From NCBI GenBank assembly GCA_026987115.1, contig JALSNF010000012.1, positions 1 through 55,926 on the forward strand: a stretch of DNA of 55,926 nucleotides. The letters are read 5' to 3'. The DNA comes from Desulfurobacteriaceae bacterium (lineage in GTDB: Bacteria; Aquificota; Aquificia; Desulfurobacteriales; Desulfurobacteriaceae). Below the pieces are notes generated by a model that saw only the letters and a list, made by a program, of their open reading frames with translations, was not told the origin of the DNA and did no database searches. A program made the position numbers and the translations under genes. Positions 11,115 through 52,028 of this stretch are shown here, one piece after another (the stretch's first letter is position 1; each line of letters starts with the position of its first letter).

Positions 11115-11761
11115 TAACTTTTGAAAACATAAGGAATGACAGCTTTTGCATCAGAAGGAGAAGAGAAAGAAATAACAGGAAGAGAAAGGAGCTTCCTTAA
11201 AGAAGATAAATTAGTGTAAAAGCTTTCATCTTCAGCTTTAAATGAGTTTAAAACCACGGAAACAACCTTTACTCCTTCAGACAAGCAGGCTTTAACCGTT
11301 AAAAGAGTATGGTTAATCACTCCCAGCTTATTAAGGGCAACAACAATGACTGGAAGGGAGAGGTCTTTAACCAAGTCTAGATAAGTGTACTCCCAAGTTA
11401 TAGGGACCATTATCCCCCCTGCTCCTTCAATTATTAAAGGGGAATACCTCTTTTGAAGGAAGGTTATCTCTGACTTAAGAGCTGAAACATTCAAAGGAGC
11501 TCCTTCCAGCTCAGAGGCAACAGAGGGAGCAACGGGCGTTTTAAAGGAGTAAAAAGGGGGGAGGTAGAGACCGCTGGCCTTACCTAAAGCTTTAGCGTCT
11601 TGGCACTCTGGAGAACATCCAGTTTCTATAGGTTTATAACCTACAGCGCTAATACCTTTTTCTTTTAAAGCATTGATTAGTGAAACCGAAAAGAAGGTCT
11701 TTCCAACTCCAGTATCGGTTCCCGTTATAAAGAGTGCTTTAGATAAGAGTTCTTTACCCAA
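11111..11761 (-). CDS. bioD: Dethiobiotin synthetase
   Basis: The 216-residue enzyme has the BioD P-loop GTDTGVGKT, the KPIETG loop and the EGAGGIMVP motif. It makes dethiobiotin from 7,8-diaminopelargonate, CO2 and ATP. The start is TTG at 11761, inside the preceding gene (37-bp overlap), with no clear ribosome site. Biotin genes are otherwise absent here; bioD sits alone at the tail of a flagellar operon. Confidence 0.93.
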   Translation of the reverse strand: MGKELLSKALFITGTDTGVGKTFFSVSLINALKEKGISAVGYKPIETGCSPECQDAKALGKASGLYLPPFYSFKTPVAPSVASELEGAPLNVSALKSEITFLQKRYSPLIIEGAGGIMVPITWEYTYLDLVKDLSLPVIVVALNKLGVINHTLLTVKACLSEGVKVVSVVLNSFKAEDESFYTNLSSLRKLLSLPVISFSSPSDAKAVIPYVFKSY

Positions 11762-11979
11762 ACTTTCGTCTCTAAAAGAGATAATATCTTCTCTTCTTCT
11801 ATTTTAAGACTTTTAGTTAGTTCTTCAAGGAGCAAATATAGGGCAGAAGCCCTTTCTTTAGAAAGTTTAGGCAAGTTTAAATCAAATTCTCGTAAGAGAT
11901 TTAGTGCCTCTTCATAGTTTTTATTGTTAATAGCTACAATTAAACTGTTTAACTCTCTTTCAAAGCTATCTCTTCCCAA
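11725..11979 (-). CDS. Small helical protein, FliT-like by position
   Basis: The 84-residue protein is predicted all-helical (NYEEALNLLREFD, KERASALYLLLEEL). It follows fliS with a 31-bp overlap and precedes bioD with a 37-bp overlap. Position after fliD-fliS matches that of fliT, the FliD chaperone, and FliT is similarly small and helical, but no diagnostic motif is visible. The start is TTG with AGGGAG only 1 nt before it, so the true start is uncertain. Confidence 0.6.
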   Translation of the reverse strand: MGRDSFERELNSLIVAINNKNYEEALNLLREFDLNLPKLSKERASALYLLLEELTKSLKIEEEKILSLLETKVWVKNSYLKHSL

Positions 11980-12308
11980 GCTCCCTTAACCTCATTCACC
12001 ATATAAATTAAATTTTCTAAAGCTTCAAGGTCGTTATCTCTGTTAACAATAAAAATTCCCCATAAAAGAGTTTCGTAGAAATCCCTTAAAGTTTTGGCAA
12101 CTTCTCTACCCTTTTCCATATCAAGTGAAGAGTTTAATACCGTTATTATCTTTTCCGCTTTAGAAAGAGAATTAACCTTTTTTTCAACATTTCCTTCCTT
12201 TATCGCCGAAAAAGCTTCTTTTAAGAGAATTAAAAGTTTATCGTAGAGTAAAATTACTCTTTCCACAGGGGTTGACGTTTCAACCTGCATTTTTAAATAA
12301 GGATTCAT
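11949..12308 (-). CDS. fliS: Flagellin export chaperone FliS
   Basis: The 119-residue protein begins with the FliS signature NPYLKMQVETSTPVERV and LLYDKLL and is helical throughout. FliS binds the disordered C-terminal end of flagellin and prevents polymerisation in the cytoplasm. TAAGGAGAGGGG precedes the ATG. It lies 11 bp after fliD. Confidence 0.93.
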   Translation of the reverse strand: MNPYLKMQVETSTPVERVILLYDKLLILLKEAFSAIKEGNVEKKVNSLSKAEKIITVLNSSLDMEKGREVAKTLRDFYETLLWGIFIVNRDNDLEALENLIYMVNEVKGAWEEIALKES

Positions 12309-12319
12309 ATCCCCTCTCC

Positions 12320-13660
12320 TTACGACTTAGGAAGTAAAGTTGGCGTTCCAAAAGTAGAAGCTATTTTAGCCCTTAACTCTTCCATTTTGGTTTGAAGGAG
12401 TTGAACTTGTATAAGCTGTTTCTTAAACTCCTCAAGCTGCTCGTTCAGCATCTTAGTCATAAAATCTATTCTGTCTTCAATCTGTTCTTTAGCACTTTCA
12501 AGACTCTTTATTTCAGAGTTAATCGGCCCTTCAGGACTCGTCAGGAAAACCAAGTAATCCTGAAGAGAATTTCTCAAGTTTGAGACGGCAGTTTTTACTT
12601 CCGTTAAGTTTTGACTCAAGAGAGTATCAAGTTTTGAGGTATTAAGGTTTACATGACCCGTATCTTTATCAACGCTGAGAATACCCAAGTCAAAAAGGGA
12701 CTGCATTTTAGAAAGGAGAGAAGAACGAACAGTATAAAGGGTGTTATCTCCAGATAGAACGCCATCTTTACCTGCTTTATCTGATATAAAGTCAACTATA
12801 GCGTTGTAGGCATTAATTAAAGAAGTAAGGTCATTTCTAAACTGGGAGTAGTCAGCTTGAACATTTATAACTGAAGTACCAATTGAGTTTACAGTAATCT
12901 TAACTCCTGGAATGGCATCCTCAAAAGTATTTGTAGAAGAGTTTATCTCTGCTCCGAAAAGGGTTATCTTCGCGTCTTGAGCCACTTGAACGTGGCTTTC
13001 AGAATAGTTATCGCCGAGCTCCAAGTTATCTAAAAGGTCCCCATTGCCGGTTTCCTTAATAGAAATAGTGGCCTTCTCTCCGGTGTCTTTTCCAGAGAGC
13101 AAGAGCCTGTAAGAGCTCCCGTCAAATATAACCGAAGCTACAACCTTGTCTTGAGAAGAGTTTATAGCGTTAGCTATTTCTGTTAAGGTTGAAGGTTTAG
13201 TGTTATCTGAAGTATCCTCATCGTAATCTACTACAGCAACACTTTGGCCTTCATACTCTATTGTTAACTGTCCGCTAGTTGTGGAAACAGGGTCAGAGAG
13301 GGAGCTAACTCCCTTCTGGGAAAGCCAAACGTCGTTTTTGGCGAGCTGGTTAACCTCTACCGTGTAGCTTCCTTCTTGGGCAGAAAGAGGGTCAAGAACG
13401 TTTGCACTTAAAACAGAAGGATTTGAAATTGAAACATTTTTCTTTTCAAGCTCATAACTTGAAGTAAGGGAGTTGAAGGCCTCGTAAAATTTTTGAATGT
13501 TAGAGTTAAACTCTTTAAGTGCCGATTCCTTTTCACTTAGCTTTGACTCTTGAGACTTTAAAAGGTTAATAGGAGCGGACTGGGACTGATAGTAAAGATT
13601 AAGTATCTCCTGATAGTCAAAAGTTCCCGCCAAGTTGCTTATGTAGAGCTCCCCTGCCAT
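12320..13660 (-). CDS. fliD: Flagellar cap protein FliD
   Basis: The 446-residue protein has FliD_N features (LAGTFDYQEIL, LKSQESKLSEKESAL) and FliD_C features (SLINAYNAIVDFISDKAG, LFDLGI). The C-terminal coiled coil (EQIEDRIDFMTKMLNEQ) forms the leg interacting with the filament tip. FliD caps the growing flagellum and folds incoming flagellin. The size is normal. The gene lies between flaG and fliS with 8-11 bp spacing and has GGGGGAAAG before ATG. Confidence 0.95.
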   Translation of the reverse strand: MAGELYISNLAGTFDYQEILNLYYQSQSAPINLLKSQESKLSEKESALKEFNSNIQKFYEAFNSLTSSYELEKKNVSISNPSVLSANVLDPLSAQEGSYTVEVNQLAKNDVWLSQKGVSSLSDPVSTTSGQLTIEYEGQSVAVVDYDEDTSDNTKPSTLTEIANAINSSQDKVVASVIFDGSSYRLLLSGKDTGEKATISIKETGNGDLLDNLELGDNYSESHVQVAQDAKITLFGAEINSSTNTFEDAIPGVKITVNSIGTSVINVQADYSQFRNDLTSLINAYNAIVDFISDKAGKDGVLSGDNTLYTVRSSLLSKMQSLFDLGILSVDKDTGHVNLNTSKLDTLLSQNLTEVKTAVSNLRNSLQDYLVFLTSPEGPINSEIKSLESAKEQIEDRIDFMTKMLNEQLEEFKKQLIQVQLLQTKMEELRAKIASTFGTPTLLPKS

Positions 13661-13668
13661 CTTTCCCC

Positions 13669-14025
13669 CTAAACTTTCTCTGAAAAGAGAAGACCCGCTA
13701 TCTCATCCAAATACTTTGCAATTTTTAAAATGTATTCTGGAGGTATTTGCCTAATAACTTTTTGAGTTTCTTTGTCTATTACTTTTACAACAATAATGTC
13801 AGTATCTTTATCTATCTGTATTTTAAGCTGAGTGTTTAAAAGGGACAGTTTCCTTTTTAAGTCATTTAGGACGTTTTCAAGAGTTTCCGGAGAAATTGCT
13901 TTCTCCCTTTCTTTTTCCATACGGTTTAAGTGGGATAGGCTCTCCTGACCTTGACTCTTAGCAGAAAAGGACTGAACGTTTATCTCTAAAGAAGGTTGAA
14001 GGTTAACTACCGACTTTACATCCAT
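13669..14025 (-). CDS. flaG: FlaG family protein
   Basis: The 118-residue protein has the conserved FlaG C-terminal half: LQIQIDKDTDIIVVKV-like strand (here LKIQIDKDTDIIV), then KVIRQIPPEYIL. The N-terminal half is polar and variable. FlaG is a small protein that affects filament length in Campylobacter and others. It follows flagellin after a partial terminator and leads into fliD. Confidence 0.88.
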   Translation of the reverse strand: MDVKSVVNLQPSLEINVQSFSAKSQGQESLSHLNRMEKEREKAISPETLENVLNDLKRKLSLLNTQLKIQIDKDTDIIVVKVIDKETQKVIRQIPPEYILKIAKYLDEIAGLLFSEKV

Positions 14026-14067: not shown

Positions 14068-14925
14068 TTACCTGAGAAGTTGTAAAACAAGTTGAGGTAG
14101 TTGGTTAGCTTGAGCAAGCATAGCTGTACCAGACTGCATAAGAATTTGATTCCTTGTAAACTCAGACATCTCTTTAGCAAAGTCAACGTTTCTGATTCTT
14201 GATTCAGCCTCTTGAACGTTAATTCTCTGGCTCTCGTTGTTCGTTATGATTTTCTCAAGCTCAATCTGGTAAGAACCAACCTTAGCGTTAAGCTGGTCAA
14301 CTTGTTTTATTATGTTATCTATGTTGGCAATAGCAGCCTCAGCTTTTGTCTGGCTTGTAACGTCAATGGTTATAGCGGTAGTTCCTATGGTTATAGTTGA
14401 CGGAGCTGCAGTATCGGCAGCCGCTGCAGCAGTAGCAGTCCAGATTTGCATTACTAATGTTTGAGCGCTCCTTCCGCCGTAGTGAATTGTAAACGTGTTT
14501 GCTCCAGCCGAGAAAATGTTCTTTCCGTTAAACTCAGTATCTTTGAAGATTTTAGAGATAACGTCAACGAGTTTGTTAATGTCCTGCTGGATTATCTTCC
14601 TAGTAGCGTCGTCTTGGGAGTCGTTTGCTGCTTCAATCGCCTTTGATTTGATATCATTTAAGATGTTATATACGTTTTGAAGGGAAGACTGGGCAATTTG
14701 AGCGATAGAGATACCGTCTTGGGAGTTCCTGGTAGCTTGCTCTAAAGACACTGCGTAGGTCTTTAACTGGTCGGCGATGTAAAGGCCCGCTGCGTCGTCG
14801 GCCGCCCTGTTAATCCTATAGCCCGTAGCAAGCCTTTCAAGGGCCTTGTTCATGTTGTATTCAGTTTGCTTAAGGTTAAAGTGGGTGAAGTCGGCCTGAT
14901 AGTTGTAGTTAATCCTTAGGGCCAT
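14068..14925 (-). CDS. fliC: Flagellin
   Basis: The 285-residue protein has both conserved flagellin ends: N-terminal ERLATGYRINRAADDAAGL (residues about 30-48) and C-terminal AESRIRNVDFAKEM with NQILMQSGTAMLAQAN. The variable D2/D3 region is reduced to a short Ala/Thr-rich stretch (TATAAAAADTAAP, about residue 163), a plausible site for O-glycans. The ATG has AAGGAGG upstream and the transcript starts at a sigma-28 promoter. The gene is followed by a terminator. Confidence 0.97.
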   Translation of the reverse strand: MALRINYNYQADFTHFNLKQTEYNMNKALERLATGYRINRAADDAAGLYIADQLKTYAVSLEQATRNSQDGISIAQIAQSSLQNVYNILNDIKSKAIEAANDSQDDATRKIIQQDINKLVDVISKIFKDTEFNGKNIFSAGANTFTIHYGGRSAQTLVMQIWTATAAAAADTAAPSTITIGTTAITIDVTSQTKAEAAIANIDNIIKQVDQLNAKVGSYQIELEKIITNNESQRINVQEAESRIRNVDFAKEMSEFTRNQILMQSGTAMLAQANQLPQLVLQLLR

Positions 14926-14949: not shown

Positions 14950-16224
14950 TCACAAACTATTATCGGAGGAGGAAACAAGAAGTTTAGGAATCCTTGAAAA
15001 GCTTAAATACCTTTTAAGCTCACTTTTGCTGTGGGAGATAAGGGGAATTAAAAGAGCGTAAATTAGGATGTCGTTAGGGTTTCTAAGAGCCAGTTTTTTT
15101 ATTACTTTTAACTTCTTTTCCTCTTCTTCAATCCAAAAGAGTAAAAGGCCTAAGTTCCTTCCCCCTCTTCTTTTCCAGAGTAAGCGAACTTCTTTTAAAT
15201 CATCTTTGGAAACCTTTAAAGGCTCTCCTTTTACCACCTCCGATTCAAAGAGAGAATAACACTCAGAAACTCCACCGTAAGGAACCACAAAGGGATTAGA
15301 AAGCATTTTGTCAAGGAGTAAAGCGCAGGAAAGGAGCTCTTTTAAAGCCTCATCTCCTTTACCTTCCGTTCTCTTTAGTTTGTAAGAGTAAAAGTAAAAC
15401 TCCGGGAGCTCCAACCCCAGCTTTTTAACTTCCTCCAAAACCCTTTCCATACCTTTAAAGTCCTCTCTCCTAAAAAGGAGAGAGAGGTAGTAGTTATAGG
15501 CAAAAACAGTGTAAAAGCCGTAGTCTTCAAGATTACCCTTTGTCTTTTCTAGAAACTCCTTTGCCAACTTTAGGGCTTTATCAATAAAGGGAGGCTCTTT
15601 GAAAGACAGAAGGTTATAGGTTTGCAACAGGTAAAAGAGCTTGTAGTTGTAATCTTTACTTCCCTCTTTTAAGCTAGAAAGCTCCTCCTTTAAGAGCTCC
15701 AAATTCCTCTTTGCCTTCTTTAAGAGGAGTTGGGGGTCAGAGTAGCCGTAGTGGTTAACGAAAACCGGTAGGGAAGCAGCTCTTTTTACCGTAGGAGACT
15801 CGTGAACTTTACCTTTCCACTTTATCCCCTTTCTGTGAATGAAGATGTGAGAGGATACGGTCCTTACATCTCCTTTAAAATCAAGGTTTTTAACTCCTAT
15901 AAAGAAGCCGTCAATAAACGGGGGAGCTCCCTTTAAAAACAAAAGGGCTTTCCTGAATTCTTCCTCTTCAAGCTCAAAGTCTGCATCAAAGTGCCAAAGC
16001 CAGTCTCCGGTTGCCTCTTTTACGGCCCTATTGCGGGCATCTGCAAAGCCGTTCCACTTGTGGAGGAAGACCTTACAACCATAACTTTTAGCAATCTCAA
16101 CAGTCTTATCCTTTGAACCGGTATCAACTAATATAACCTCGTCAAACTTTCCTTTTAAGGATTTTAAAAGCCTGGGAAGGTTTTTCTCTTCGTCTTTAGC
16201 TATAACGCAGGCAGATATCTTCAA
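14950..16224 (-). CDS. Family 2 glycosyltransferase with helical/TPR-like C-terminus
   Basis: The 424-residue protein has a GT-A domain at about 1-200: ACVIAKDEEKNLP, D34 in VDTGS, and the metal-binding D80-A-D82 in WHFDADFE. From about residue 185 it becomes a run of helix pairs (SLKEGSKDYNYKLFYLL, ALKLAKEFLEKTKG) like TPR repeats, which often bind protein acceptors. Family members add sugars to proteins or LPS core. Placed directly before flagellin, it is a good candidate flagellin glycosyltransferase. The start is TTG with GGGAGGAG just upstream and a 29-bp overlap with the preceding gene. Its tail contains the flagellin promoter. Confidence 0.85.
   Translation of the reverse strand: MKISACVIAKDEEKNLPRLLKSLKGKFDEVILVDTGSKDKTVEIAKSYGCKVFLHKWNGFADARNRAVKEATGDWLWHFDADFELEEEEFRKALLFLKGAPPFIDGFFIGVKNLDFKGDVRTVSSHIFIHRKGIKWKGKVHESPTVKRAASLPVFVNHYGYSDPQLLLKKAKRNLELLKEELSSLKEGSKDYNYKLFYLLQTYNLLSFKEPPFIDKALKLAKEFLEKTKGNLEDYGFYTVFAYNYYLSLLFRREDFKGMERVLEEVKKLGLELPEFYFYSYKLKRTEGKGDEALKELLSCALLLDKMLSNPFVVPYGGVSECYSLFESEVVKGEPLKVSKDDLKEVRLLWKRRGGRNLGLLLFWIEEEEKKLKVIKKLALRNPNDILIYALLIPLISHSKSELKRYLSFSRIPKLLVSSSDNSL
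14960..14986 (-). promoter_or_regulatory. Sigma-28 (FliA) promoter for flagellin
   Basis: On the minus strand TAAA (14983-14986), exactly 15 bp, then TCCGATAA (14960-14967) matches the FliA consensus TAAA-N15-GCCGATAA with one mismatch. It lies entirely within the last codons of the upstream glycosyltransferase gene, about 35-60 nt before the flagellin ATG. This implies late-class control of flagellin independent of the upstream operon. fliA itself is outside the window. Confidence 0.85.
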
Positions 16225-18061
16225 GAGCTCCTCCCTTTAAAAGTGAAACAAATTCTCCTTTCCTTAACTCCAGAGAGTTTTTAGGCTTTAAAAGCCTTTC
16301 CTTAACATAGGAAATCTCCTTTAAGACTGAGCCGTCTTCAATCAAGGAAGAGAAGTCAAAAAGGGGATTAAGGAGAACGGCTCTTTTTAGTAAGTACAAA
16401 GAGTTAGAGTCCTTAATTTTCAAAGAAACGGTCCCTCCCACTAAAAAGCTAAAGAAAAGGGGTAATTTTTCTGACAAAGAGGCTGCAGCTTGAAAGTTCC
16501 CATCCTTTAAAAATGAGAGAGCCCTTAAAACGAGTCTCAACTCTTTCTTATTTAAAAGGAGCCCTGCCTCTTTAAGGAAGGTTCTAAAGTCTTTCCCTGC
16601 CAGCCAAGAGTAGTAGGACGCGTTAAAGAAGTCTTGGTGAAAGGTAAGGTCTTTAGAGAAATAGGAAAGGGCATTTTCCTTGTCAAAGGAGTATATCTCC
16701 TCCAAAGGGACAATTTCTATAAATTTCCTTTTAATTACAGACTCGTAAGAGAAGTCAGACTTTAAAAGATTTGCTGACACATTATTTTGGTGAATCCTGT
16801 AAGTAAAGCCTTCAGTTAAAAGGCCTTTTATTTCTATAAAAGGTAAAACCCTCGTCCAGAAGTGGTAATCTTGAGCTCTAGGGAACTCTTCACTATAACT
16901 TCCAAACTCTAAGTAAAGCTCTCTCTTTAAGCAGACAGAAGGGTTGGAAATAGGAGTTTTACGGGCTAGAGTCCTAAGTAAAAGGGGTCTATTTTTGTAG
17001 TAATCGTAGGGCAACAAAACCTGATAAGTTCCTTTTCCCTCCTCTTTCACATTTATAATTCTCGGGTAGAAAAGGGAAACATCAGGAAAAGAGTTTATGG
17101 CAACTGCATACTTAGAAAGGAGCTCCCTATTTAGAACATCGTCATCATCAAATAAAACAATCCAGTCTCCTTTGGAGAGCTCTATACACCTATTCCTTGC
17201 AAAAGGCCTCCCTCTATTTTTATCTCCTCTAAAATACTTTATTTTTTCAGATTTAAAGCCCTTAACTACCTGATAGGTGGAATCTGTTGAACCGTCGTCA
17301 TAGACTATAACTTCGTAGTTTTTATAGGTCTGGGAAAGGACACTCTCTAAAGCCTCTTTCAAGTAGTTAGCTCTATTGTAAGTGGGTATGCATATGGAAA
17401 AGAAAGGATAGTCTTTAACTTCTATTCTTTTTAAAATGAGAGCTCCCTTTTCAGTGTGCACAAATTCATCCTCATAAACTTCAAGCTCCCCTTTCCATTT
17501 TAAACTCGCCCTTTTCTCACCTTCTCCGTTAGCGTCGTCAAGGATTAGAACAAAATCTTTAGCAAGGAACGGCTTTAAAATAGGCAAAACAGGATACCTT
17601 GCTTCTTTTTGAATGTCTTGAGGAGGACCGTCTATGAAGAGAAGGTCAATTTCCTTGTCCTTTAAAAGCTCCTTGAGCTCTTTTATGTCGTACCAGAGCC
17701 ACTCTTTACCGTTAATAGAGTAAGGTTTAAGTGGAGCGTAGAGTAGGTTAACTTCCAAGCCGTGGAGGGAGAGCTCCCCCTTTGTTTTAAGGTAGAAGTC
17801 GTAGTCGTGTTCAAGGGAAAAGAGCTCCCCTTTTGGGAAGTAATTTTTAATTAAATAACCGAAAACCACAGTTGAAACGCCGGAACCAGCTTCAACTATA
17901 ACCAAGTCCTCTTTATCTAGCCTGAAAGCTTCCTTAACTGCGGCTAAAAGGAGCTCCCAAGAGGCCGCCCAACCTCCCGCTTTAGGAAGGGGAAATCGGG
18001 GATTAAGGAGATTTTGAAGTTTAAGGTAGGATTCAATCTGTGAAAGTTCAACTTCTTTCAA
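16196..18061 (-). CDS. Fusion of a methyltransferase-like domain and a family 2 glycosyltransferase
   Basis: The 621-residue protein has three parts. Residues about 25-210 form a Rossmann domain with VEAGSGVST (glycine-rich SAM-loop position), SLEHD and LFIDGPP, resembling class I methyltransferases. Residues about 220-430 are a GT2 domain with ICIPTYNRANYL, VYDDGSTD and D305-DDD308. The C-terminal 190 residues are helical and uncharacterised. The TTG at 18061 is preferred to a longer frame from 18127 because GGAGG sits 7 nt before it. It overlaps the upstream gene by 14 bp. Likely role: building or attaching a modified glycan to flagellin; inferred from context. Confidence 0.8.
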   Translation of the reverse strand: MKEVELSQIESYLKLQNLLNPRFPLPKAGGWAASWELLLAAVKEAFRLDKEDLVIVEAGSGVSTVVFGYLIKNYFPKGELFSLEHDYDFYLKTKGELSLHGLEVNLLYAPLKPYSINGKEWLWYDIKELKELLKDKEIDLLFIDGPPQDIQKEARYPVLPILKPFLAKDFVLILDDANGEGEKRASLKWKGELEVYEDEFVHTEKGALILKRIEVKDYPFFSICIPTYNRANYLKEALESVLSQTYKNYEVIVYDDGSTDSTYQVVKGFKSEKIKYFRGDKNRGRPFARNRCIELSKGDWIVLFDDDDVLNRELLSKYAVAINSFPDVSLFYPRIINVKEEGKGTYQVLLPYDYYKNRPLLLRTLARKTPISNPSVCLKRELYLEFGSYSEEFPRAQDYHFWTRVLPFIEIKGLLTEGFTYRIHQNNVSANLLKSDFSYESVIKRKFIEIVPLEEIYSFDKENALSYFSKDLTFHQDFFNASYYSWLAGKDFRTFLKEAGLLLNKKELRLVLRALSFLKDGNFQAAASLSEKLPLFFSFLVGGTVSLKIKDSNSLYLLKRAVLLNPLFDFSSLIEDGSVLKEISYVKERLLKPKNSLELRKGEFVSLLKGGALEDICLRYS

Positions 18062-19286
18062 AGTTGTCCTCCAGCAAGGCTTTAAGGAGCTTTTCCACTT
18101 TAGGAGTAAGGGATAATTCTTTTGCAACTTCAGTTAGGTTGTAGAGGTAGTCCTCGTTTAAGGGGTTCATCGTAGTAGCTTTGTAGAAAAACTTAAAGGC
18201 TGAATCACTATTCTTAATAATCCAGTTAACGACTCCAAGAAGGTTATAAAGGGGAGCTCCCCTGTAAACCTCTAAAACCTGACCTGAAGCCACTATAACT
18301 TCTCTTACTTTTCCCTCCTTTACTGCTTCTTCAAGCTCTTTAATTAACTGTTCTATCTTTGATATCCTCTCCCTCTCCCTTTCTACTTCCTCTCCTGTAA
18401 GCCCTTGAGAGGTAGAAGCAAACTCTCTGGCCTTTTCAAAAAGCCCCATGTTCAAAAAACACTCTACAAGCTCTCTTAGAGTTTCCTTGTTGTGAAAGGA
18501 AAGGAGAGCTCCCCTTAAGTAATTTTGAGCGTTAAAATAATCGTAATAGGAAGCAAGCTTTTTTCCGATTAAAGTTAAAGCCGTAGCCTTGGCTACCTTT
18601 TCATTTTCTTTCCAAGACAGGTAAGGAAAGAGCTCCCTCTCCCAGTCAAATTCCTTTAAGACAACCTCCCTTAAAACAAAAGCCCTGTAGGCAGTATCTA
18701 TAAAAGAAGTTAACGGCTCGTAAGTGGCGTAAGAGAGCTCTGAAAGGCTTAATTTAAGCTTCCTTACGTTTCTATACATAAACTCATAAAGCTCATAATC
18801 TTCAAGGAAGCTGTTAAAACCTCCTCCTTTCTCTACAACCTCTTTAGAAGTTAAAAGTGAAGTTTCGGGAACATAGTCTTCCAGAGAGAGACTAGGTATT
18901 AGCTCAACTTCCCTTCCAAGAACTTGAGCGTAGTTATTAACCTTCTCTTTATCGCCTTCCCTTAAAATCAAGTTGGGGAAAACAAAATCGGCCCTACTTT
19001 CCTTCTTCTCCTCTAAGAGCTCCTCAACTAAATCTTCTTCTAAAAGGGTCTTAGACTCAAGGAAAAGGAGATTTTCATAATTAGCTTCTTTAACTAAGGA
19101 ATTCCTAACCTTTCCTCCTTTAAGCTCTGTTAAATTTAAAGAGCGAATGGGAAAAGAAGTATCGGTCTTTCTTACCTCTCCAGGGAAAATAACCTCACCT
19201 ATAAACTCCCCGTTTAACTCAAGAGAGGACAAAAACTCGTCGTCTAAAACAGGCTCACCTGTAATCAAGATGGAGACTTTCTCCAT
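18048..19286 (-). CDS. Degenerate glycosyltransferase-like protein with TPR-like C-terminus
   Basis: The 412-residue protein is unfamiliar. Residues 1-200 have the rhythm of a GT-A fold (SILITGEPVLDDEFLSSL, LLFLESKTLLEEDLVEELL, ADFVFPNLILREGDK) but lack an obvious DxD or DDGS motif. Residues about 220-410 are helical repeats (AQNYLRGALLSFHNKETL, SDSAFKFFYKATTMNPLNEDY), the last being a good TPR. It may be an inactive partner or scaffold for the two active glycosyltransferases encoded downstream. TTTTGGAGG precedes the ATG. It is the first gene of that trio, 14 bp after ribD. Confidence 0.65.
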   Translation of the reverse strand: MEKVSILITGEPVLDDEFLSSLELNGEFIGEVIFPGEVRKTDTSFPIRSLNLTELKGGKVRNSLVKEANYENLLFLESKTLLEEDLVEELLEEKKESRADFVFPNLILREGDKEKVNNYAQVLGREVELIPSLSLEDYVPETSLLTSKEVVEKGGGFNSFLEDYELYEFMYRNVRKLKLSLSELSYATYEPLTSFIDTAYRAFVLREVVLKEFDWERELFPYLSWKENEKVAKATALTLIGKKLASYYDYFNAQNYLRGALLSFHNKETLRELVECFLNMGLFEKAREFASTSQGLTGEEVERERERISKIEQLIKELEEAVKEGKVREVIVASGQVLEVYRGAPLYNLLGVVNWIIKNSDSAFKFFYKATTMNPLNEDYLYNLTEVAKELSLTPKVEKLLKALLEDNFERS

Positions 19287-48788: not shown

Positions 48789-49281
48789 TGTAGTAAAGCC
48801 TCTCTCCCACTTCCCTAAATATTTCCCTAGCTACCCTCCTTAAACACTCTCTCCTCTTCTCCTCTATGTCAGAAGCTGTTCCGTAAGTGTTATAAAAGCC
48901 GTATCTCTCAACTTGAAATGTATAAAGCGGCTTTTTATAGCCATATTTAAAGACCTTTACAGTAGCCTTAACGGTTAACATGTACTCTCTCGCAACATCA
49001 TTTCTGTCATAACCAACAGGGGTCGCAGAAACAGAGTTTACAGACACCTTAACAACGAGAGTTCTATCTGGAACCGGAAGTGAATCAACCTTAAACCGAG
49101 GGTCTGAGTAGAAAACCTCATCTGCAACTTGAGTGAAGATAACGTCAAGCCCTTCTTGGGAGGTCCTGTTTGTTATGGGCTCCAAGTAAAGGTGCTCAGG
49201 TTTCTTCGGCTTAGTAAAAGAGCCGGTAGTTGCACACCCGCCGAGTAAAAGAAGTAAAAGGAGAGAAAGGAATCTCAGCAA
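48757..49281 (-). CDS. lptE: LPS-assembly lipoprotein LptE
   Basis: The 174-residue protein has a lipoprotein signal with LGGC (Cys at about 16), then LEPITNRTSQEGLD and FYSDPRFKVDS, the LptE pattern of an N-terminal strand, helix and grf-x-V segment, followed by AREYMLTVKATVKVF. LptE plugs the LptD barrel in the outer membrane. Its position directly after leuS, as in E. coli leuS-lptE, supports the call, since sequence conservation is low. Confidence 0.82.
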   Translation of the reverse strand: MLRFLSLLLLLLLGGCATTGSFTKPKKPEHLYLEPITNRTSQEGLDVIFTQVADEVFYSDPRFKVDSLPVPDRTLVVKVSVNSVSATPVGYDRNDVAREYMLTVKATVKVFKYGYKKPLYTFQVERYGFYNTYGTASDIEEKRRECLRRVAREIFREVGERLYYNEGLKGVQRR

Positions 49282-49283
49282 AC

Positions 49284-52028
49284 CTACCTCACAACAATGT
49301 TTACTATCCTCTTCGGCCTGTATATAAACTTAACAATTTCTTTGTTTTCTAAAACTCTTTGCACCTTAGGTTCCCTTAAAACCAGCTCTTTAACTTCCTC
49401 CTCTTTGGCATCAGAGGGAACCTTTACGACAGCCCTAACTTTCCCATTTACCTGAACTGGAATTTCAACTTCTTCCTCTTTCAGCGCCTCTTCGTCAACT
49501 TCCGGCCAGGAGGTTTTAGCTAAGAGCTCTCCCTTACCTATAAGCTCCCAGAGCTCTTCGCAAATGTGAGGAGAAAAGGGATAGAGCATAATTAACAGCT
49601 TTTCCACAGCCTCTTTGAGGGCTCCTTTATCACCCTCAGTTTGAGGTTTAAAGCTCGTAATCTGGTTAAAGAGCTCCATAATACTTGCTATCGCCGTATT
49701 AAACTTAAACCTTTCGTCAAGTTCAGAGGAGACCTTCTTAAGGGTCTGGTGGGTTTTCCTTCTAAGCTCTTTTCCTTCTTTAGAGAGCTCCCCCTGATAA
49801 GAACTCTTTAAGAGCTCCCTATTTTCGCTGACGAAGTTAAAGAGTTTCCTTAAAAACCTGTAAGCTCCTTCTATCCCTTCAGTTTTCCACTCAAACTCTG
49901 ACTCGGGAGGGGCAGCAAAGAGAACGTAGAGCCTTGTAGCGTCTGCTCCGTACTTCTCAACCATCTCAGAAGGGTTAACTATGTTTAACTTAGACTTGCT
50001 CATCTTTGAGACTTCACCGAACTTTTCCTCATAGGGCTTTAAAACTAAAGAAGGCTCTCTATCAAGGAATTTTGAAATCTCCTCAGTGCTAAGGAGCAAA
50101 ATAGCGTTATCTCCAAGGGTAATGTGGTTCCTCTTCATTAGGGAACCTATGGTTTCGGAGAGTTCAACATCCTTTCCAGTTAAAGCTTTTATGAGAGCTC
50201 CAAGCGGGCTCTCTTCAGTTAAGTTTAAGGCTTCAAGGAGTCCCTTTACGCTAATCCACCTCTTGTTAACCATACCTTGGGTTAAGAGGTTCTTAAAGGG
50301 CTCTCCACTCTTAAAGAACTCTATCTGATGGGAATCATCAGGCTCTTTAAAAAGGCCTATGTCCCTTAAAACTTTAGCAAAGAACCTTGAATAGAGGAGG
50401 TGTAAAACGGCGTGCTCTATTCCCCCTATGTACTGGTCAACTACCATCCAGTAAGAAGCCTCTTTTGGGTTAAAGGGAAGTTTTTCCTCTTTCGGGGAAC
50501 AGTACCTTAAGAAATACCAGGAAGAGTCAAAGAAGGTGTCCATTGTGTCTGGGTCTCTTTTAGCAGGAGCTCCACACTTTGGGCACTTAACTTTTATAAA
50601 CTCTGGAACCCTTTCAAGGGGAGAGCGTCCTTCCCCTAAAAGGGGAGCTCTCTCTGGCAGCTTAACTGGGAGCTCCTTTTCAGGAACTGGAACTATGCCA
50701 CAGTTTGGGCAGTGAATAACCGGAATAGGAGTTCCCCAGTATCTCTGTCTTGATATGTTCCAATCTTTTAACCTGTATTGAACGCTTCTTCTTCCTTTAC
50801 CTAGCCTTTCAAGCTCTTTAACTATCTCCTCTTTCGCCTTTTCACTCTCTAGTCCTGAGAACTTGCCACTATTAACCAAAACTCCGCCGGCCGTATAAGC
50901 TTGAGTGAGCGACTGAGGGTCTAGCTCTTCACCTTTCGGAGAAACTACAACCTTTACAGGTAAACGGTACTTTTTAGCAAACTCAAAGTCCCTTTGGTCG
51001 TGAGCTGGAACGGACATTACGGCTCCCGTTCCGTAGTCCATTAAAACGAAGTTGGCAGTATATACTGGAACTCTCTCCCCGGTAAGAGGGTGAACAGCGT
51101 AAACTCCTAAGAAAACTCCTTCCTTCTCAAGCTCTCCAGTTGCCCTTTTCCTCTTTTCAGTTTTCCTAATTTTATCAACAAAATCCCTAACTTCCCTTTC
51201 TTGAGGAGTCCCTTTAGACAACTCAAGGGTTAAAGGATTTTCCGGAGCTAAAACCAGGTAAGTTACCCCAAAAAGAGTATCTGGTCTTGTGGTAAAGACC
51301 TTTATAACACTATCCCTGCCCTCAACCTTAAACTCAACTTCGGCACCTACGCTCTTTCCAATCCAGTTCCTTTGCATAGTTATTACAGGCTCAGGCCAGT
51401 AGCCCTTAAGGAGTTCAAGGTCCTTTAAGAGCTCTTCAGCGTAGTCTGTTATCCTTAAAAACCAGCTGTCAATCTCCCTTTGCTCAACGGTAGTTCCACA
51501 CCTCCAACACCTTCCCTCCTCGTCAACCTGCTCGTTTGCAAGGACGGTCTGACAAGAGGGACACCAGTTAACTTGAGCCTTTGACCTATAAGCTATTCCC
51601 TTTTCAAGCATCTTTAAAAACAGCCACTGGTTCCACTTATAATACTCAGGGGAACAAGTTGCTATCTCCCTTTCCCAATCGTAAGAAAAGCCTAGCCTCT
51701 TAAGCTCTTCCTTCATATTCTCTATGTTTGAAAAGGTCCACTCTTTAGGGTGAACTCCACTTTTTATGGCGGCGTTCTCAGCCGGAAGCCCAAAAGCATC
51801 CCAGCCCATAGGGTGAAGGACGTTAAAACCTTTCATCCTCTTAAACCTTGCTATTACATCTCCTATAGAGTAGTTCCTAACGTGCCCCATGTGAATTTTT
51901 CCCGAAGGGTAGGGGAACATTTCAAGAACATAGTACTTCTTAGAAGCTGAAGGGGAGCTCTTAAAAACTCCTTCTTTATCCCAAACCTTTTGCCACTTAA
52001 GCTCAATCTCCTTATGCTCATAACTCAT
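49284..52028 (-). CDS. leuS: Leucyl-tRNA synthetase, single chain
   Basis: The 914-residue class I synthetase has KIHMGHVRN (HIGH), a zinc-ribbon region (CPSC...CWRC), the CP1 editing domain ([11 protein letters not shown]-like [30 protein letters not shown]), a second CPNC...CPKC pair and KMSKS near residue 675. A ~75-residue insert (about 600-670) lies just before KMSKS. In Aquifex aeolicus the enzyme is split into two subunits; here it is one chain of about the combined length. It lies 2 bp before lptE. Confidence 0.97.

Follow-up and report, generated by a model that had tools for sequence, protein, structure and literature searches.

A putative flagellin glycosylation cassette and its association with flagellins lacking outer domains in Aquificota

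Genes and promoter upstream of fliC

The window analyzed here, a stretch of 55,926 nt from a Desulfurobacteriaceae bacterium (GCA_026987115.1, contig JALSNF010000012.1; positions in forward-strand numbering) whose metagenome-assembled genome (MAG) is 91% complete, carries three consecutive genes, here termed C, B and A, directly upstream of the flagellin gene fliC. All lie on the minus strand and follow one another, in the direction of transcription, as C, B, A, fliC, flaG, fliD and fliS. Gene C (18048 to 19286; 412 amino acids) begins 14 bp downstream of ribD and overlaps gene B (16196 to 18127; at most 643 amino acids) by 80 bp; B overlaps gene A (14950 to 16224; 424 amino acids) by 29 bp, and 24 bp separate the end of A from the start of fliC (14068 to 14925), which encodes a flagellin of 285 amino acids and is followed by the filament genes flaG, fliD and fliS (11949 to 14025). 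The original prediction, a flagellin glycosylation cassette of three overlapping genes directly upstream of fliC, described this layout correctly. The three are real genes, given that full-length orthologues occur in other genomes: among 136 genomes of the class, A is found in 25 and C in 33, and B has full-length orthologues in five relatives and in Nitratiruptor.

Gene A encodes a family 2 glycosyltransferase (GT2; PF00535 in Pfam, E 7e-25). Its closest match among solved proteins is the GmaR chain (phmmer E 1e-20), followed by SunS and ThuS, and a profile of A orthologues matches GmaR at E 1.2e-40 over positions 3 to 186, the whole glycosyltransferase (GT) domain, as well as matching TPR structures. 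In a model built from the orthologue alignment (mean predicted local distance difference test score, pLDDT, 90), a GT-A domain is followed from residue 164 by TPR-like helical repeats, which bears out the predicted GT2 with a TPR-like tail; the best fold matches of this model in the PDB are the peptide glycosyltransferases SunS and ThuS, and the Nitratiruptor orthologue has TPR matches in Pfam. Invariant across 19 A orthologues are DTGS, the DxD motif (D80-A-D82) and the HE pair (H141-E142) of a WxGKVHE segment. A fails the SunS equivalog TIGR04195 of NCBIfam, scoring 68.1 bits against a cut-off of 350. Judging from homology, it would resemble the GT part of GmaR in its working, but it is no full orthologue of GmaR, which has 637 residues and a C-terminal antirepressor region that A and its orthologues (410 to 510 residues) lack. 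In 22 of the 24 fetched loci with both genes on one stretch, A stands immediately upstream of fliC on the same strand. No relatives of A were found among viral contigs, and PHROGs returned only generic phage GT matches for A and B; C had none.

Gene B was predicted to be a methyltransferase-like/GT2 fusion, and the domain searches agree: an N-terminal class I methyltransferase (Methyltransf_24, PF13578; 27.3 bits against a cut-off of 26.3) precedes an intact GT2 domain (PF00535, E 7e-34) and a C-terminal tail. The methyltransferase motif E79-GSG-ST and the GT2 motifs DDGS and DDDD are invariant. The true start of B is uncertain: orthologue alignments begin at residue 10 to 28, so that the annotated TTG start is doubtful and probably lies too far upstream.

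The flagellin consists of D0 and D1 only, without D2/D3. Its middle (residues 141-197; 14335 to 14505, minus strand) contains 28% Ser/Thr and 23% Ala, in line with the Ala/Thr-rich variable region originally described, and compares with 11% Ser/Thr in the core; on the basis of composition we propose it as the glycosylation-site region, and a conserved pattern around APST-T-IG-T and DVTSQT provides candidate sites only. The cassette was also said to run straight into flagellin, which holds physically, but fliC has its own sigma28-type (FliA) promoter inside the 3' end of A (14960 to 14986, minus strand; TAAACTTC-N11-TCCGATAA; 13/16 consensus positions). This promoter lies 59-68 nt before the start codon and is conserved at the same position in most relatives, and fliC can thus be expressed apart from the cassette. 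A sigma28-type promoter upstream of C serving the whole cassette was considered and rejected: the window site matches 12/16 positions, lies 63 nt upstream and is unconserved, and sites of at least 12/16 occur upstream of C in 5/32 loci versus 43/602 for other genes.

Co-occurrence with short flagellins and exchange of the locus

Flagellins of the class come in two size classes, about 285-300 amino acids (without D2/D3) and about 440-610 amino acids. Among the 77 genomes in which flagellin type was compared, A is present in 24 and C in 27 of the 29 with short flagellins, whereas neither occurs in those with long flagellins (0/48 for each; Fisher p 2e-15 for A and 9e-19 for C, p-values that ignore relatedness). 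The association recurs in nine independent pairs of an rpoB tree that differ in flagellin type, with C concordant in 8.6 and opposite in 0 (median p 0.004) and A concordant in 7.4 and opposite in 0 (p 0.016). Both genes are confined to two families of the class, Desulfurobacteriaceae and Hydrogenothermaceae according to the named records, and the cassette was not found in the entire family f4. Simple hitchhiking does not explain the association, because it also holds in genomes whose C and fliC are 100-600 kb apart (G043, G051, G058 and G125). Four of the five short-flagellin genomes without A have C. Three of these four (G025, G058 and G103) carry Maf directly upstream of fliC, and the other, G109, is fragmented. 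In the fifth, G013, a fragment resembling A precedes fliC at the edge of a contig (L150).

Comparison of close relatives reveals how the two flagellin types alternate. Genomes G052, with C-B-A and a short fliC, and G039, with a long fliC and no cassette, are nearly identical in rpoB. Their left flanks share 90.7% identity for the 6.1 kb that reach the edge of C; the right flanks share 79% beyond fliS. Between these flanks, G052 holds C-B-A and the short fliC with its own fliD/fliS, and G039 the long fliC. Like switches separate G001 from G002/G003, G008 from G016/G018/G021, and G017 from G009/G014. The two arrangements, a short flagellin with the cassette and a long flagellin without it, are alternative alleles that replace each other at one site. 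The long-flagellin locus of G001 encodes the classical machinery, Maf and NeuB; other long-flagellin loci have no Maf at the locus, and a long flagellin therefore need not be glycosylated. In some lineages, exchange of the flagellin seems to include the filament cap and chaperone: in genera g1 and g6, fliD/fliS switch with flagellin type (about 30-38% versus 51-70% identity to the window proteins; L117-L131, window 11949-13660) while the next genes, bioD and a MauG-like gene, stay conserved. In g7, fliD remains similar (45-51%) across changes of cassette and flagellin type. Such pairs amount to a natural experiment, in which nearly identical vent bacteria differ at one locus, either carrying A and C with a short flagellin or lacking both and having a long one, making it testable whether a glycan coat can replace the outer domains of flagellin.

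C-B-A is not a fixed trio: G024 matches G052 except for a clean indel that takes out B, and in six further genomes (G003, G004, G005, G007, G009 and G021) the middle slot is empty or occupied by other genes. Between C and A lie a weakly sulfotransferase-like protein in G003, a fusion of an IspD-type cytidylyltransferase and a short-chain dehydrogenase together with a CDP-glycerol glycerophosphotransferase-like protein in G004 (L120:1673-6170), a nucleotidyltransferase with a CDP-glycerol glycerophosphotransferase-like protein in G021 (L131:8833-10577), and nothing in G009. In G059, a sulfotransferase, WbqC and a sugar aminotransferase adjoin A, and in relatives multi-GT2 proteins of 700-980 amino acids and methyltransferases occur upstream of or near the cassettes. 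As the content of the middle slot differs among relatives, A and C form the core, B is replaceable and the glycan would vary; the predicted three-gene cassette agrees with all available sequence tests, refined in that only A and C are the constant part and B can be exchanged.

The middle genes of G004 and G021 suggest a polyol-phosphate on the flagellar glycan, recalling the type A system of Clostridioides difficile (CD0240-CD0244), whose chemistry the two G021 genes resemble. This likeness is by description only and takes the presumed family of CD0244 as given; the window cassette differs from type A by having the B fusion in the middle. In many relatives, proteins of 960-980 amino acids with up to three GT2 stretches adjoin C (L123:7611-10505, L125:10181-13105, L137:4534-7470 and L149:6466-9378), and these may take over glycan extension in loci without B.

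The cassette extends to a second phylum. When named genomes were scanned with the C alignment, a search that is based on two short motifs and may miss more distant relatives, 22 loci were returned, all from Aquificota or Campylobacterota (mostly Nitratiruptor). In three Nitratiruptor/Campylobacterales loci (L197, L208 and L209), C, B and A stand together with a fliC of 285 amino acids, and in L207 a C match lies just upstream of B-A-fliC, so the set is indeed found beside fliC elsewhere. The intact arrangement in Campylobacterota suggests that vent bacteria have passed on the whole module horizontally, and filament-plus-glycan modules are common to both phyla. The open-access literature yielded no description of flagellin glycosylation for Aquificota or Nitratiruptor, which accords with the suggestion of an undescribed Aquificota system, but the system also occurs in Campylobacterota and its kind is known from Listeria and C. 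difficile.

Several single genomes depart from the common arrangements. In G111, otherwise nearly complete, C (interrupted by seven in-frame stop codons) and the neighboring fliC are each a pseudogene (C11, about 49028-50523; L185) and fliD is also cut, a joint decay of filament and modification genes. G110 (L174, L175) has two flagellins, one of 285 amino acids beside A and one of 336 amino acids elsewhere, with A present and C not found. The long fliC of G121 (C5; L172) is split into open reading frames of 279 and 157 amino acids, each about 90% identical to long flagellins, through a frameshift or an assembly error. In G010, A ends at a contig edge where fliC is expected, and a separate contig (C117; L148) carries a divergent flagellin-like pair (248 and 191 amino acids) with a divergent FliD.

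Loss of the DxD motif in gene C

Gene C has no Pfam family above threshold, PF00535 included, with TPR matches below threshold only, and phmmer with C alone found no match in the PDB. A profile of C matches TPR structures and, weakly, GT2 structures, and a model from the orthologue alignment (mean pLDDT 92) shows a GT-A fold followed by TPR-like helices, for which Foldseek returned TarP (E 9e-10) and also TarS. C is homologous to the GT2-and-tail half of B (hhalign probability 99.7%, 360 columns), and in this alignment the DDDD of B faces ESKT in C. DxD is found in none of 34 C orthologues from two phyla. The description of C as a GT-like/TPR protein therefore stands for the fold and the helical tail; C is GT-like in fold alone.

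Conservation is distributed unevenly along C: in the first 85 residues, 3 positions are at least 90% conserved, versus 43 in A, and 59 conserved positions follow further on, which indicates that the donor side is relaxed and the rest of the fold is kept. From these features we conclude that C is probably a dead glycosyltransferase, and the chances that it serves the cassette as a non-catalytic partner seem to us evenly balanced. Alternatively, C could be active, with a metal-independent or unusual donor site, and add a sugar of its own. The GT-A fold is predicted with high confidence, C keeps an RN motif and a conserved ED-Y-E-F-Y segment at the catalytic-base region of GT2 enzymes, and some GT-A families function without DxD; however, DxD is missing from all 34 orthologues and the donor-binding half looks relaxed, and we regard activity as unlikely.

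A non-catalytic role has a parallel in the GtfA/GtfB adhesin pair, in which a catalytically dead GT helps the active protein glycosyltransferase. The parallel is an analogy only; GtfA/GtfB have a GT-B fold and act on secreted Ser-rich adhesins of Gram-positives. What is new here is the conserved, probable pseudo-glycosyltransferase and the strict tie of A and C to flagellins without outer domains; flagellin glycosylation probably gains a strictly conserved protein of this type as its third component.

Related systems, proposed function and alternatives

GmaR of Listeria monocytogenes transfers N-acetylglucosamine (GlcNAc) onto flagellin, and its TPR domain was proposed to recognize flagellin (PMC9638930). 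It shares with A the closest GT2 relationship, the order of GT2 and TPR and, as proposed for A, the flagellin substrate, but A has no antirepressor region, is accompanied by B and C, and abuts fliC. By architecture only, the cassette also resembles the type B system of C. difficile (CDR20291_0241-0243), where three GT-type genes by fliC encode GT1, which adds GlcNAc, GT2, a PF00535-methyltransferase fusion that attaches two rhamnoses and, according to a proposal, methylates them, and GT3 (PMC5207246). The two differ in that the methyltransferase is PF08241 there and PF13578 in B, that GT3 has PF00535 whereas C is degenerate, and that type B uses rhamnose whereas a search of the window MAG did not turn up rmlA, a gene for rhamnose; nor does the window cassette contain genes for peptidyl-amido sugars, unlike C. 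difficile. FlmG of Caulobacter is likewise a modular flagellin glycosyltransferase whose TPR domain binds flagellin (PMC7591256), but with a GT-B fold, an N-terminal TPR and pseudaminic acid as donor. Like A, SunS and ThuS are GT2 enzymes acting on a peptide; they form S-linkages on bacteriocins. Maf (PF20157/PF01973), the classical motility-associated flagellin glycosyltransferase, is encoded immediately before fliC in relatives and replaces A in some short-flagellin genomes, but belongs to an unrelated protein family; its domains are absent from A, B and C and were not found in the window genome. With A, B and C, machinery in the style of GmaR and C. difficile extends to deep-branching thermophiles.

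Taken together, the relationship of A to GmaR, its place next to fliC, the co-occurrence with short flagellins, the exchange of the locus between close relatives, the occurrence of Maf in the corresponding slot of alternative loci, the likeness in domains to C. difficile type B and the presence of the trio by a 285-residue flagellin in a second phylum support C-B-A as a flagellin glycosylation cassette, a function that we consider likely from sequence. The cassette would act in the cytoplasm, O-glycosylating flagellins without outer domains. A is probably the priming enzyme: it would use a nucleotide sugar to place the first sugar, by analogy GlcNAc, onto Ser/Thr residues of the exposed Thr/Ser/Ala-rich loop of FliC, which its TPR tail would grip. 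For B, extension of the glycan plus methylation is the role we somewhat favor, with the GT2 domain adding at least one further sugar and the N-terminal domain methylating the added sugars. C, as a probably dead GT2 paralogue retaining fold and TPR tail, might hold flagellin or the other enzymes non-catalytically. The modified monomer would then be exported and its glycan would coat the thin filament, with the cassette moving and being replaced together with its flagellin. More tentatively, C might be an obligate non-catalytic GT-fold partner specific to flagellins without D2/D3, presenting or chaperoning flagellin or assembling A and B on it, with the glycan coat taking over the role of D2/D3 and with filament type and machinery exchanged as a unit across species and phyla.

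As originally noted, the window cassette contains no nucleotide-sugar genes. Of the five genomes in the family that carry B, rmlA was found in one, G006, and not in the window MAG (G000, 91% complete), G002, G016 or G018. Rhamnose as the sugar of B is thus unsupported in four of five carriers, and the glycan is probably not the rhamnose chain of C. difficile; a sugar from a common pool, such as UDP-GlcNAc, is a plausible donor.

Several observations weigh against a flagellin glycosylation cassette of this form. In most B carriers of the family rmlA was not found; fliC has a promoter that would allow its transcription apart from the cassette; short flagellins with Maf in place of A show that A is not the sole solution; and many genomes of the class are MAGs, in which absences are weaker evidence. 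In Geobacillus, flagellin length showed no link to the glycosylation island (PMC5109656), so that the link is no general rule and the strict tie seen in this class is unusual.

The genes could instead make or decorate lipopolysaccharide (LPS) or exopolysaccharide, with proximity to fliC arising by chance or from clustering of surface-glycan genes. The GT2 domain of B does score highest against polysaccharide GTs in NCBIfam, far below their cut-offs, and glycerophosphotransferase-like and sulfotransferase-like genes such as those in the middle slot of relatives are also known from polysaccharide loci. However, the strict association with flagellin type, seen across the compared genomes and tree pairs and even where the genes are unlinked, and the closeness of A to peptide and protein glycosyltransferases make this improbable; in the loci inspected, whose flanks were not exhaustively annotated, no cassette stood beside recognizable lipid A, core or O-antigen genes, and the linkage of the trio to LPS core genes that had been named as a refutation was not seen. 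It is similarly improbable that the trio modifies FliD, FlgL or FlaG instead of, or besides, FliC: fliD and fliS do change with the cassette in g1 and g6, but fliD remains alike in g7, and A and C covary with flagellin length. That A is mainly a regulator, with glycosylation secondary, is very improbable: its nearest solved relative, GmaR, combines both functions, with a separate domain that binds MogR and acts as antirepressor of flagellar genes (PMC9638930), but A is without that region and its catalytic residues are invariant.

Beyond the filament genes, the minus strand of the window carries an open reading frame of 84 amino acids (11725-11979) that overlaps the end of fliS, precedes bioD and has no Pfam match above threshold; similar small reading frames of 90-107 amino acids follow fliS in many relatives.

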